From the NCBI GenBank assembly GCA_012837155.1, contig CP051546.1, positions 1,157,075-1,221,074 of the forward strand: a stretch of 64,000 nucleotides of DNA, written 5' to 3'. The position numbers were made by a program, and so were the translations under genes. The DNA is from Flavobacterium sp. Its GTDB lineage: Bacteria; Bacteroidota; Bacteroidia; Flavobacteriales; Flavobacteriaceae. The notes under the pieces were generated by a model. That model made no database searches and was not told where the DNA came from. It saw nothing but the letters and a program-made list of their open reading frames with translations. Below are positions 13,625-17,379 of the stretch, piece by piece (within the stretch, counting starts at the first letter, position 1; the number at the start of each line of letters is the position of its first letter).

Positions 13625-14036
13625 GCAAAAACTAGTGGTTTGGTTCTTTTTTGAAATGTTTGGGAAGTCATGGAAAAGATATTGGTAGAGCAGTAGTGAC
13701 GGGTGTTGTTGTTGGTGTATTGCAGGGGCTAAAATTGGTCTTGCAGGAGGGACTGTTGCTTTGCCAGGTTTTGGTTCTGCTGCTGGAGGGATTGGAGGAG
13801 CTGTATTCGGGGCTGCAGGCGGTTGCTGTTGGTGGGAGCAGCTACAACTGTTGTGTGGGCTGCAGTAGATTGCATGCATCTTCTTGTATTAACTAAACAT
13901 GAATTAGTGTATGTAAAAAGAAGATTTTTTTGTTGATGAAATGCCTGAGATAAAAATAACAAACGAAGATGCTGGAACTTTTTAATCAATTGTTGAATGT
14001 ATCTCAAGAAGAGAATTAGTACTACTAGCCGAATAG
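13625..14036 (+). pseudogene. Glycine-zipper protein, copy 1, 5'-truncated remnant
   Basis: After correcting one-base indels this region reads GSHGKDIGRAVVTGVVVGV, then IAGAKIGLAGGTVALPGFG, then SAAGGIGGAVFGAAGGA, then AATTVVWAAVDCMHLLVL. It ends near VDEMPEIKITNEDAGT and a stop at 14034-14036. It matches the zipper part of the copy-2 protein (16031-16948) at GKD-GR, AGAK-G, G-VPG-G-like and GGAVFGAA blocks and at the D-C of the tail. The N-terminal half with the lipobox is missing, apparently removed where ISL3 copy 2 ends at 13614. It is followed after 3 bases by the first small membrane gene. Confidence 0.75.
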
Positions 14037-14070
14037 AAAATGGGTGTGACAAGTAAAAATAATATTTTTA

Positions 14071-15099
14071 ATGCGAATCAAGGGTTGAAAAAACATTAAA
14101 AAAGAAAGAAATTTCTTTGTAAAAATTAGAATAATAAGCTGATAATCAGTATATTTATAGTGTATCTAAACGCACGGTTTAAATATATGATTAATCAGCT
14201 TAAAGCCCCTAAATTAGTAAAAATATATTCCATAATCTGTGACAGATTTGAAAAAGATTAAAATACACTTGCGAACGTTTCAGCAACAACCATAAACAAG
14301 ATTTAACAGATCAAGAAATTATGACCATATACCTATTCACAGTTCAAGAAGAACAACGTTTTAGCATCAAACAAATTCATAAATATGCTTGTGATTATTA
14401 CATGATTGGTTTCCAAGACTTGGCTCATATGCTGGTTTTTCTAATCGTCTTAATCAATTATCAGAAGCTTTTTCGACGTTTTTCAGCTTCATATTTGAAG
14501 ACTTTTTACCTTGGGATTGCTTAACTGATCAAAGTTACTGGATTCGATGCCAATAATCACTTGCTCTGGTAAACGAAATGGAAAGGTAGCAAAGACTTGA
14601 CCGATATAAGGGTATTGTTCTACAAAAGCATGTATTATTATGGAGTGAAGCTTCATGCATTAGCTTTTAGACGAGAAATAAAATTCCTTTTCCTGAGAAA
14701 TTCAAATAACACCTGCATCTGTCAATGATTTAACGGTTTTCAAAGAAGCGTGGTCAGAAAAAACAAACAGCAAATTCTTTGGAGATTAAAATATACATTA
14801 ACGAGGATTTTTTTTTTCTGAATTAGAACAAGAGAAAAATTCAATTATGATTACACCAGTTAAAGCAATCAAAGGACAATGTCAACAAATAAAAAACTGG
14901 GATAAAGCAGCCGATGATTTATTTTCCAAAGCAGTATCAAGAGTTAGACAGCCCATAGAATCTCTTTTTAATTGGTTGATTGTTAAAACTGATATTCAAA
15001 AGCAAGTAAAGTTAGGTCTAGCAAGGGGTTACTGGTTCATCTATTTGGAAAAATTGCTGCCGCTTTTATTGGACTAATATTTTAACCCTTGATTCGCAT
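14071..15099 (+). mobile_element. IS982-family insertion sequence, copy 1
   Basis: The element runs from ATGCGAATCAAGGGTT at 14071 to its complement ending at 15099, with flanking 5-bp repeats TTTTA (14066-14070 and 15100-15104). It is the same element as at 59669-60699, differing by many single-base indels and only a few substitutions. It sits inside small membrane gene A, copy 1. Confidence 0.93.
14187..15085 (+). pseudogene. IS982-family transposase, copy 1, many frameshifts
   Basis: Corresponds base for base to the intact transposase at 59783-60685. The frame is broken by about 17 one-base indels (for example CAAAGTTACTGG for CAAAGTTTACTGG, GCAAAGAC for GCAAAAGAC, and GATTATTACATG for GATTATTTACATG). 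Fragments of the catalytic core are still readable, such as SRVRQPIESLFNWLIVKTD near 14940. As written it cannot make a transposase. Because indels far outnumber substitutions, sequencing error is at least as likely as decay. Confidence 0.85.
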
Positions 15100-15263
15100 T
15101 TTTAATATTTTTTGGGATATTTTTTTCCGTTTTTTTCAATAAGTATCTTCTTTTGGGTATGTTTATGGAATAGAGCAGTGTTAACATGGGATTTTAGAAT
15201 GTTTATGGGTATATTATTGTCTGTTTTTTTAACTATTTTTGATTTAAATTTTTAAATCGGTTT

Positions 15264-15504
15264 ATGAAAGGGCAAAAAACTAGGATATCTAAATTATATG
15301 TGATATTATGGGAGATTACAGTACCTTTTGTAGTTATTAGTATTGTTTTTTTTTCGCTTTTAATAGAAAATAAATTTTATAGCTGGATTGTATTAATAAA
15401 TGGAACAAGTAAAATAAATTTCTATGTTTACTCTATTTATGTTTTTTTTGTTTATCCTTTTTTTGCTTAAAGGAATACAGTTTTTTAAAAAGGCGAATAA
15501 ATGA
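15264..15504 (+). CDS. Small membrane protein B, copy 1 (unknown family)
   Basis: About 80 residues starting MKGQKTRISKLYVILWEI at ATG 15264. Two hydrophobic segments (VPFVVISIVFFSLLI and a C-terminal YVFFLFILFLL) flank the polar stretch ENKFYSWIVLINGTSK. A one-base change in the T run near 15445 causes a premature stop; in the corrected frame it continues LKGIQFFKKANK to 15504. It clearly resembles protein B of copy 2 (WEI--P-VIS-VF-SL-IEN-FY-W-VL-N, then KGI near the end). It lies 8 bases after the stop of small membrane gene A. Function unknown; small size and two membrane spans would suit an immunity or accessory protein, which is inference only. Confidence 0.65.
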
Positions 15505-15593
15505 ATTTTTAAAATAATTGATAATTCAAGACTTTATTGCTTTTTAAAGACTTAATATGGAAAATGTGGATAAAATCATGTTATTTGTCCTAT

Positions 15594-15702
15594 GATTATC
15601 CCGTAGAAAAAATTTTATCGAGATTCTAAATTATGTACTATTGGCGAAGGAACTACCGAAATTCAGAAATTGGTAATTTCGAGGAATATTTTGAAAGTCT
15701 AG
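15594..15702 (+). pseudogene. Remnant of an acyl-CoA dehydrogenase 3' end
   Basis: This stretch encodes DYPVEKFYRDSKLCTIGEGT and then TEIQKLVISRNILK (one extra A near 15610). It is the same protein as the last 34 residues of the dehydrogenase at 10100-11251 but with about ten synonymous base changes (for example CCC for CCG, TCT for TCG, ATT for ATC). It stops at TAG 15700-15702 after one extra codon. No upstream part of the gene is present. It separates the two copies of the glycine-zipper cassette. Confidence 0.88.
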
Positions 15703-15803
15703 AGGGTAGAATGTATAAAAGGGTCAAGAAGTAAGAAATTGTAACTTGGCTTTTTTTATACTTTTTAAATTAGGGTACTTTTAAATATAAAATGATAAAC
15801 TAT

Positions 15804-15917
15804 GGATACTTCTTATAGATTTACTTCGAATGTTGAACCACTAAATAACAATTGGAAGATTTGATGACAGAGTTAAAATCTGCTTTTAGAATAGTCTCTG
15901 GTAGCATATTTATTTAA
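15804..15917 (+). other. Short degenerate ORF of unknown origin
   Basis: ATG 15804 reads MDTSYRFTSNVEPLNNN and, after a one-base shift, LEDLMTELKSAFRIVSGSI. The paired frames suggest a broken small gene, but I recognise no family. The rest of 15703-16030 is AT-rich with no other feature I can name, apart from a long T run near 15970. Confidence 0.25.
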
Positions 15918-16030
15918 CAACAGAAGTGTTTAAAATTGAGTTAAAAGTACATATATGTTTATGTCTCGCCTTTTTTTTTTTTAGTTTCGACTCAAATTAT
16001 CTAAAATATTAATTTAAAAAATTAAAAAAA

Positions 16031-16948
16031 ATGGAAAAAATGTTTTGTGCCTTAGCAATGATTTTTATGATTACTTCTTGTAGTAATGATGTGATTAAAA
16101 ATGAAAAACAAGTTTCAAATATTAATTATCCTGAACTTAAATTAGAGATTAGTGACAGAATTTAGTTTCTCTTGGTAATAAATTTAAAGATGAAGTAAAA
16201 ACAAAAGAATTGGTTTCTAAAATATGTGGAAATAAGAAAGTCTTCGAGTTTATCTAAAAAAATGAATTTCAATAATGATTTTTGAAATACCTAATCTCTT
16301 TAGCCCCTCATTATAACTCTGAAGAAAAAATATTTATGTTGAGTTTTTATAATAATCTTGTAAATTGTTATGATGATAGAATTATAGATTTGATAGGTAT
16401 AGAAAGAGAACGCCTTAATTCTGGTTCTTTTTCAAATGATTTCAGAAATGAAGTTGATTTTATTTTTTATGTTGTTGAAATGTCAGCTAAGGAGATTTAT
16501 TTATTAAAACAGAATGGAAGAGACTCTGTGTCTAAGCAAAAGCGTTTAAGTGGTTTTGGGGAATGCATTACTAAAAAAGTAACAGGAAAGGATTTAGGCA
16601 GGAATATGGTTTATGGTCTTGTGGCGGGGGGTATTGCAGGAGCTAAAGGGGGTGCTACTGCTGGGACGTTTACTGTTCCGGGATTAGGAACGGCTGTAGG
16701 TGCTGTAGGAGGTGCTGTTTTTGGAGCAGCAGCTGGTGCTGTGGGAGGCGCTATTGGAGGCTATGTTTGGCCTGCAATAGATTGTATATTGTATCCTAAA
16801 GCATATGACGAGAAAAAATATTTGACTAATGATTTTTATGCTACTGAAATGAAGGAATTGAGAATTACAGTGGAAAGAAGAACAATTCTTTAATGAAATT
16901 TTGAATTTTGCCAGTAGATACAAAAATAAAAATTGTAGAATAATATGA
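16031..16948 (+). CDS. Glycine-zipper lipoprotein, copy 2 (unknown function), frameshifted
   Basis: ATG 16031 begins a lipoprotein signal (FCALAMIFMITSCSND; the Cys would be lipidated). A polar region of about 150 residues follows, including YNSEEKIFMLSFYNNLVNCY and NEVDFIFYVVEMSAKEIYLL. Then comes a glycine-zipper block (about 16590-16780) with GLVAGGIAGAKGGATAG, VPGLGTAVGAVGGAVFGAAA and GAVGGAIGGYVWPAIDC. The largest open piece is 16282-16893; indels near 16163, 16243, 16290 and 16893 hide the rest. In the corrected frame the stop TGA (16946-16948) overlaps the next ATG, suggesting translational coupling. Glycine zippers often form membrane-inserting helices, as in some bacteriocins and outer-membrane proteins. 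I do not recognise this family; a pore-forming or envelope role is inference. Confidence 0.6.
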
Positions 16949-17115
16949 AATTGAAAAAGGTAGTTTTTGGGATGTAGTTTATCCATTTTTGACTGTGTTA
17001 TTGATGTTTTTTTGGTGCTTATTGGTATTACAAGCCGTTAACTTGGGACTATTTAATGTTTAGGCAGTTATTAATTGCTGTTTTTTTTAATTTTTTTCTT
17101 ACAGAAAAGTATTAA
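16945..17115 (+). CDS. Small membrane protein A, copy 2 (unknown family), frameshifted
   Basis: ATG 16945 overlaps the stop of the lipoprotein gene. With one T restored near 16974 it reads MKLKKVVF-WDVVYPFLTVL, then LMFFWCLL, then (after a second indel near 17023) LTWDYLMFRQLLIAVFF and NFFLTEKY to the stop at 17113-17115. Two hydrophobic segments, about 55-60 residues. It aligns with the restored copy-1 protein (WD, FFW, LTWD, MF, LL--VF). It lies 2 bases before gene B. The call depends on the indel corrections but is supported by the match to copy 1. Confidence 0.55.
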
Positions 17116-17117
17116 TT

Positions 17118-17379
17118 ATGGTTCTAACAAAAAGTCAAGAGGTCTCTTTTATATGTTGTTATCTGGGAAATAATAGCTCCTTTATCTGTAATTAGTTTGG
17201 TTTTTATTTCTCTTGTTATTGAGAATAGGTTTTATAATTGGAGTGTTTTAGTCAATAGTTTGAGTAATGGAAATCTTTATATCGGTATAGTAATGCAAGT
17301 TCTGCTTTGCTATTTTCTTCATAAAGGAATCAAAATAATGCAAAAGGATGTTTTTTTTAAGAACCACATGAGAGAATAA
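17118..17379 (+). CDS. Small membrane protein B, copy 2 (unknown family), frameshifted
   Basis: ATG 17118 starts MVLTKSQ. After an indel near 17165 the frame reads WEIIAPLSVISLVFISLV, then IENRFYNWSVLVNSLSNGN, then LYIGIVMQVLLCYFLHKGI, and ends FFKNHMRE. Two membrane spans with a basic C-terminus. It corresponds to protein B of copy 1 through WEI, VIS-VF-SL-IEN-FY-W-VL-N and KGI. It is the last gene of the cassette; about 160 bases of repeat-rich intergenic DNA then lead to rpsU. Confidence 0.6.

Follow-up and report, generated by a model that had tools for sequence, protein, structure and literature searches.

The 64,000-nucleotide stretch of Flavobacterium sp. DNA analysed here (henceforth the window) belongs to a chromosome assembled as a single 3.10-Mb contig (G000). 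In the interval between an intact acyl-CoA dehydrogenase (ACAD) gene and rpsU, two insertion sequences (ISs) are present together with two cassettes, one of them partial and interrupted by a third IS, the other complete and preceded by a second ACAD tail. The cassette, proposed below as a candidate toxin-immunity pair, consists of a predicted lipoprotein gene with a glycine-zipper region followed by one membrane-protein gene. The partial cassette is referred to as copy 1 and the complete cassette as copy 2 (Table 1). An initial annotation of this DNA had described two diverged copies of a lipoprotein gene followed by two tiny membrane-protein genes, A and B. The two diverged copies in the same order were confirmed between 13639 and 17379, as were the glycine-zipper regions at 13639-13823 (copy 1) and 16555-16788 (copy 2).

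Table 1 Features of the cassette interval and its edges in the window.
Feature	Position	Strand	Details
ACAD gene, intact; left edge of insertion site	10100-11251	+	Pfam Acyl-CoA_dh domains; 89.7% to G099 orthologue
IS1595-type IS	11368-12336	+	39-nt terminal inverted repeats 82% complementary; transposase open reading frame 11842-12336
ISL3-type IS, bordering the missing N-terminus of the copy 1 lipoprotein	12343-13607	-	99.8% to inverted copy 7890-9154
Copy 1 lipoprotein relic, frame-broken	13639-14036	+	only glycine zipper and C-terminal tail; nearest of ten compared is P0019 of G099 (type II)
Copy 1 four-span membrane (immunity-like) gene, IS-split	14040-15504	+	
IS of ~1.03 kb with DDE_Tnp_1-type transposase, inside copy 1 membrane gene	14073-15097	+	second copy 59671-60697, 97% identical
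Extra ACAD 3' tail	15594-15699	+	90.3% to resident tail over 103 bp
Copy 2 lipoprotein, lipobox ..TSC near start, frame-broken in assembly	16031-16943	+	N-domain, zipper and tail all present
Copy 2 glycine-zipper domain (type I), bracketed by two conserved cysteines	16555-16788	+	54/76 identical to P0002
Copy 2 four-span membrane (immunity-like) gene	16945-17379	+	A and B of the initial annotation are its two halves
rpsU (ribosomal protein S21); right edge of insertion site	17541-17738	+	

At the same locus, two relatives whose frames are intact (G147, L003/L054; G099, L005/L053) have a lipoprotein of 306 or 302 amino acids (aa), a gap of 4 base pairs (bp) and one protein of 141 or 145 aa with four predicted spans. 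The supposed genes A and B are a single open frame of 141 and 145 aa in L003 and L005, which reduces the cassette from three genes to two and makes A and B the halves of one four-span protein rather than separate two-span proteins. All nine aligned relatives of the four-span protein, two of which have a known genomic place, are single frames of 141-153 aa. A tblastn search with a four-span relative covered A and B of copy 2 together (17008-17346, 50% identity, two internal stops), and the same query also matched pieces of copy 1. At other sites the lipoprotein is paired with a smaller partner, 60-83 aa long and with two spans. The main two-span profile was matched by each half of the four-span partner (hhalign probability 95 and 93), as against 0.3-0.6 for an unrelated two-span family used as a control. 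Judging from these profile matches, the four-span partner consists of a pair of two-span units fused in one gene, and A and B of the initial annotation correspond to these units. The spacings had been correctly described as short, and the 3 bp of copy 1 was observed (TAG 14034-14036, ATG 14040), but the ATGA overlap proposed for copy 2 was replaced, by eye, with a stop at TAA 16941-16943 followed by ATG 16945. The TAA is favoured because the C-terminus of the relatives reads ...KIVE/KIIEL.

Copy 2 retains the complete set of parts, including a 203-aa open piece of the lipoprotein at 16282-16893, and its zipper and the first half of its partner are both type I. Copy 1 represents the remnant of another allele. 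Its lipoprotein matched a relative by tblastn only from residue ~172 of 302, and the N-terminal ~170 residues with the lipobox were not found in it, so the earlier description of copy 1 as a lipoprotein holds only for the zipper and C-terminus. The ISL3 match stops 31 bp upstream of the copy 1 zipper. The IS inside the copy 1 membrane gene, which the initial annotation had missed, is flanked by a 9-bp target duplication (ATTTTTAAT); its second copy in the window carries a 300-aa transposase open reading frame (ORF). The half of the copy 1 membrane gene encoding transmembrane segments 1 and 2 (TM1-2) is type II (25/39 identical to P0048) and the TM3-4 half is type I-like (36/59 to P0044). Against the partners compared, the TM1-2 half scored 25/39 and 20/38 to two of type II versus 10-11/38 to seven of type I. 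The alleles are therefore linked, with a G099-type (type II) zipper beside a G099-type TM1-2 half in copy 1 and type I beside type I in copy 2. Since the TM1-2 half of copy 1 is type II like its zipper and the TM3-4 half is type I-like, the TM1-2 half may hold specificity.

The origin of the two copies was examined through the extra ACAD tail that precedes copy 2. In an 89-bp ungapped block, all eight substitutions between the extra and resident tails were synonymous (8/8), where the synonymous share expected at random is 22% and the eight together have a probability of 6e-6. Because all eight differences are synonymous, the extra tail diverged in a working gene, and most simply it would then have arrived with copy 2. 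Since copy 2 follows this tail, the two diverged alleles were likely stacked by recombination and not by plain duplication. The damage to copy 1 may have come later than the arrival of copy 2 or may already have been present. A local tandem duplication followed by divergence, an alternative that concerns the origin only, would account for the same gene order, the adjacency of the copies and the repeated ACAD tail, and the extra tail indeed resembles the resident gene more than it does those of the other sampled species. Such a duplication is nevertheless unlikely given the exclusively synonymous tail changes, which place the divergence in a working gene, and given that the two cassettes resemble different Flavobacterium alleles. 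The earlier term "duplicated" was thus right about there being two copies and probably wrong about how they arose. The ~330 bp between the extra tail and copy 2 (15700-16030) showed no match elsewhere within the window.

The insertion site was compared among genomes using rpsU, which was detected in 112 of the 121 genomes searched. The 30 best-matching rpsU places of these 112, window included, were examined and the 29 others counted. A cassette-free dehydrogenase gene ends 99-370 bp before rpsU in 23 of these 29 places (nine close orthologues at 88-93% identity and 14 at 32-35%), an opposite-strand gene lies between dehydrogenase and rpsU in three, and no dehydrogenase is within reach in the remaining three. 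Since none of the 29 carries the cassette, it is an accessory insertion between ACAD and rpsU. The inverted ISL3 pair at 7890-9154 and 12343-13607 (99.8% identical) flanks ACAD and could invert ~3.2 kb.

The assembly is 86% complete and rich in errors. Mapping of G099 proteins onto the window revealed frame switches in six of ten conserved neighbour genes, which we take to be those for EF-Tu, XerC, HPF, NusG and RplA and a ComEA-like gene. Because these neighbours also switch frame, the frame breaks of the cassettes are not readable as biology, and every claim of a broken gene from the window therefore needs checking.

Twenty-nine aligned lipoproteins share a helical N-domain and a glycine-zipper stretch with the consensus G..GTV.LPG.GTA.GAVGGAVFGAA.GAV, and two alignments displayed an extended GxxxG glycine zipper inside a hydrophobic stretch. 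The cysteine at the lipobox position is invariant in 29/29 relatives (by alignment, without a dedicated predictor), as are the two cysteines that bracket the zipper (C181 and C255 of L003). An AlphaFold2 (AF2) model of the lipoprotein (mean pLDDT 72.8, pTM 0.73, with loop 217-224 below 50) contains two helices, 189-214 and 227-256, with cysteines 181 and 255 towards the base, where they would form a disulfide. Some close pairs have exchanged domains: P0003 and P0007 are 93% identical in the N-domain, 52% in the zipper and 48% in the tail, and P0006 and P0007 are 92, 45 and 48% identical in the same order. Other close pairs, such as L003 and P0006 (91/91/78%), have not. A conserved N-terminal domain with an exchanged C-terminal domain is the arrangement of polymorphic toxin systems, in which light the C-domain would be the toxin. 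Clear zipper lipoproteins were found in 9 of 398 genus genomes, window included, and the system is rare on that count.

The tables for the first lipoprotein member reached no Pfam or NCBIfam curated cut-off, and no Pfam model was matched at its curated cut-off by the cassette proteins in the tables examined. Assignment to the class II bacteriocins (PF10439) does not fit, the proteins having a signal peptide with a lipobox and not a double-glycine leader; Bacteriocin_IIc was matched by 2/29 members with a best E of 0.13. At a separate locus (L121 5349-12287, G186), a long run of ORFs for peptides of the double-glycine-leader type was observed, one of which matches Pfam Bacteriocin_IIc (E 4e-10) and also the lipoprotein profile in its zipper part (E 6e-8).

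An ordinary envelope module, in which a membrane-spanning or bridging structural or stress lipoprotein resembling OmpA, YiaD or TagQ is accompanied by a small assembly partner, would be in keeping with weak matches to Gly-zipper_OmpA (12/29 members, best E 1.6e-4) and TagQ (14/29), and the zipper scores as high against an OmpA-type lipoprotein as against a class IIc bacteriocin. An OmpA/YiaD assignment was not upheld, as the first member scored 14.9 bits where the Pfam Gly-zipper cut-off is 27, and no family for the OmpA C-terminal domain was among the 25 families listed. This explanation is considered improbable, since no curated cut-off is reached in the first-member table and a sporadic (9/398), recombining system with an extra partner copy is unlike housekeeping genes.

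The association of lipoprotein and partner was then evaluated across loci, where partners were defined as same-strand ORFs of 60-150 aa with at least two hydrophobic spans at a gap of -23 to +20 bp. The test set aside L007, L008 and L011-L014 (by eye outside this lipoprotein family), the repeat places L006, L021, L022 and L025, the window's own copies and matches covering the signal-peptide region only. A directly downstream partner was present in 14/15 lipoprotein loci, the exception being L010, compared with 1/69 of the control ORFs, which were other ORFs of at least 150 aa in six of those loci. The cassettes of L016 and L023 are identical, giving 13/14 distinct loci. Homologues of the cassette proteins thus occur together elsewhere, whereas the initial annotation had held that their never doing so would speak against its reading. 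Across 13 pairs, the identities of the lipoproteins are correlated with those of their partners (Mantel r 0.74, reached by 0/5000 permutations). Extra partners were also observed. The lipoprotein of G669 is followed by a 76-aa partner of its own, 66% identical to the G183 partner, and immediately afterwards by a second one of 79 aa; this second partner shares 70% identity with the F. hydatis partner but 29% with the adjacent one. In G692 a partner occurs by itself, and the genome gave no lipoprotein match. In G376 (L009 1135-1278), a zipper lipoprotein and its 64-aa partner are immediately followed by a second two-span ORF, of 47 aa, whose identities to the 13 compared partners, at 15-36%, indicate no close relative.

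A phage-defence or superinfection-exclusion pair active in the membrane would also be compatible with small multi-span proteins located in recombining islands, and the four-span protein has two weak PADLOC matches. This alternative is regarded as very unlikely: none of the other four cassette proteins scanned matched PADLOC at E 0.01, the partner family has bacteriocin-like neighbours, and no phage genes were noticed by eye among the ORFs read.

Those bacteriocin-like neighbours emerged from a search of the same 398 genomes for the two-span family, which gave 15 genomes at E<=1e-3 and ten at E<=1e-7. The five genomes between these limits (E 2.8e-5 to 9.2e-4) were left out; one was inspected (L106) and no cluster was seen there. 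The lipoprotein is present in three of these ten (G183, G669 and G779). Five others (G677, G751, G698, G726 and G042) carry the two-span partner behind an ABC exporter with a C39 peptidase domain, at a gap of 3-21 bp in four. In G698 the partner lies 265 bp beyond the main ABC frame, and both G698 and G751 have a split exporter frame. A thioredoxin-like gene is present in all five exporter clusters and a short MKKLELKQMENL.GG-like (double-glycine-type) peptide in four, with no intact double-glycine-type peptide ORF among the ORFs listed for the G751 cluster. The four leader-type peptides scanned from these clusters matched no Pfam family. Of two partners in G187, one lies near a leader-type peptide and the other on a 3.1-kb contig. 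When the G669 lipoprotein was used as the query against the seven lipoprotein-less genomes, six gave no match and G187 only a 56-residue N-terminal match (E 5e-4).

The two-span partners largely share one chromosomal site, with an amino-acid-kinase gene on one side (PF00696 in L119; presumably aspartokinase) and a gene of ~1143 aa without a Pfam match on the other. By eye, both edges are present in F. hydatis (G779), G669, G692, G751 (kinase end partial), G698, G726 and G042, and one edge in G677, G183 and G187. The exporter clusters mostly occupy the site at which other species carry the lipoprotein and partner. Five loci (L095, L114, L115, L116 and L117) form a bacteriocin-like island between the amino-acid-kinase gene and the 1143-aa gene that includes two-span and multi-span proteins. 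The leader-type peptides in four of the five island loci have a Gly/Ala-containing hydrophobic stretch between cysteines.

This shared family and site bear on a further alternative, that the lipoprotein serves in defence, as a surface decoy or immunity lipoprotein acting with the small membrane protein against the class II bacteriocins of neighbours. Lipoprotein immunity factors such as NisI exist, the two-span family is common to bacteriocin-like clusters at mostly the same chromosomal site, and an exporter was not apparent at any of the four lipoprotein loci inspected. A defensive role is nonetheless held to be unlikely. Exchange of the C-terminal zipper under a constant N-domain is the pattern of polymorphic toxins, and the killing proteins CdzC/CdzD and TelE are characterised by glycine zippers (PMC5380434, PMC10434224).

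The cassette is considered, with moderate confidence, to encode a membrane-active antibacterial lipoprotein toxin bearing a glycine zipper and its cognate membrane immunity protein. The initial annotation had offered a membrane-acting effector with small membrane immunity proteins as speculation. That guess gains support from the gene neighbours, the domain exchange, the extra partners and the membership of bacteriocin-like clusters, and is the best-supported reading; the plural proteins A and B give way to one partner. In the proposed mechanism, the lipoprotein would carry a lipid anchor and its zipper would form a helical hairpin, with the two invariant cysteines predicted near the base. The hairpin would insert into and permeabilise the membrane of neighbouring bacteria, and the partner would protect by binding the hairpin within the inner membrane. 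Because the toxin would be tethered, delivery would need cell contact. Strains would exchange alleles by homologous recombination in flanking genes, and copy 1 would have been left beside copy 2 when the latter entered with a foreign ACAD tail.

Several observations weigh against this assignment. Fold searches with the AF2 lipoprotein model (mean pLDDT 72.8) returned no significant match, and the AF2 model of the partner was poor (55.2). The matches of many members to housekeeping zipper lipoproteins, though weak, reach E 9e-5 (TagQ), and the four-span protein weakly matches the membrane parts of 2TM effector models in PADLOC (E 0.0027 and 0.0065). Acidic residues after the lipidated cysteine are a hint of surface export; here they are mixed, with 13 of the 24 sequences having a script-found cysteine carrying at least two at +2 to +6. 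The zipper is no more similar to a true class IIc peptide (G186) than to three glycine-rich proteins that are not bacteriocins, for which reason homology to a toxin is not established; five peptides from the shared site score below those controls against the zipper. The copy 2 tail is nearest P0007 although its zipper is not, a mosaic, and in copy 1 the membrane gene combines a type II half with a type I-like one. The Mantel correlation depends on a small number of close pairs (Spearman 0.25) and could arise from shared ancestry alone. The short partners of a more distant lipoprotein subgroup fail to match the main partner profile. Finally, no ABC-exporter-like ORF was seen at L050, L052, L053 and L054 (12-14 kb each; by eye, without a profile scan).

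If the toxin-immunity assignment is correct, it would name a toxin-immunity family for Flavobacterium and its relatives. One immunity family would serve both exported and lipid-anchored toxins, and the window would document, in nature, the stacking of alleles at an antagonism locus. Members of the protector family that stand alone or in bacteriocin-like clusters suggest a route for weapon swapping and spare antidotes. A broader proposal is advanced tentatively, as possible but short of probable: that Bacteroidota turned a bacteriocin into a tethered weapon, with the zipper hairpin placed on a lipoprotein, an immunity family common with diffusible bacteriocins of the same site in sister species, a four-span immunity protein made by fusion, and alleles exchanged and stacked through the flanks. 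On that proposal, the cassette would represent a new family of contact-dependent polymorphic lipoprotein toxins. A search of full-text literature, whose coverage excludes most subscription journals, listed no paper on these proteins.

The cassette was compared with known systems. Contact-dependent killing by CdzC/CdzD, with immunity by CdzI, in Caulobacter crescentus involves a glycine-zipper toxin proposed to insert in the membrane (PMC5380434). The likeness, by description, lies in a hydrophobic glycine-zipper toxin on the outer membrane of the producer and an immunity protein of the inner membrane, small and multi-span, encoded by the same cluster; two proteins exported by a type I system act there (PMC5380434), whereas a single predicted lipoprotein of ~300 aa is encoded here. 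By eye, without a profile scan, L050, L052, L053 and L054 each have one toxin-like gene and no adjacent exporter.

The two-span partners resemble in size and form the CdiI immunity proteins for ionophore toxins of contact-dependent growth inhibition (CDI), which are very hydrophobic two-helix hairpins of 72-100 aa, highly polymorphic and cognate-specific, and a putative glycine zipper in these toxins is a further likeness (PMC11630599). The CDI carrier is CdiA with five-helix toxin domains, unlike the present lipoprotein (PMC11630599); no CdiA-sized ORF was among those listed at the four lipoprotein loci, no genome-wide cdiA search having been made. SitA/SitI of Myxococcus likewise pairs a polymorphic lipoprotein toxin, with conserved N-terminal and variable C-terminal domains, with a downstream immunity gene, but its nuclease C-termini target the cytoplasm after delivery by outer-membrane exchange (PMC5562445, PMC8546572), where a zipper hairpin is predicted here.

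TelE/TipE shares a C-terminal glycine zipper, required for toxicity, variants that conserve the zipper, and cognate immunity; TelE toxicity is proposed to proceed via membrane insertion (PMC10434224). It differs in using a T7SSb LXG carrier and in TipE having no transmembrane span (PMC10434224). Amoebophilus APD1/APD2 are similar by description in combining a lipobox and conserved N-domain with a variable C-domain, and are predicted to act on the eukaryotic host (PMC3482391). The double-glycine bacteriocin-like clusters of Flavobacterium use a leader peptide and a C39-ABC exporter and not a lipoprotein, and zipper alignment z scores to five cluster peptides were 0.2-4.9, below the non-bacteriocin controls. 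With the cassette they have in common the two-span family and, for the most part, one chromosomal site.

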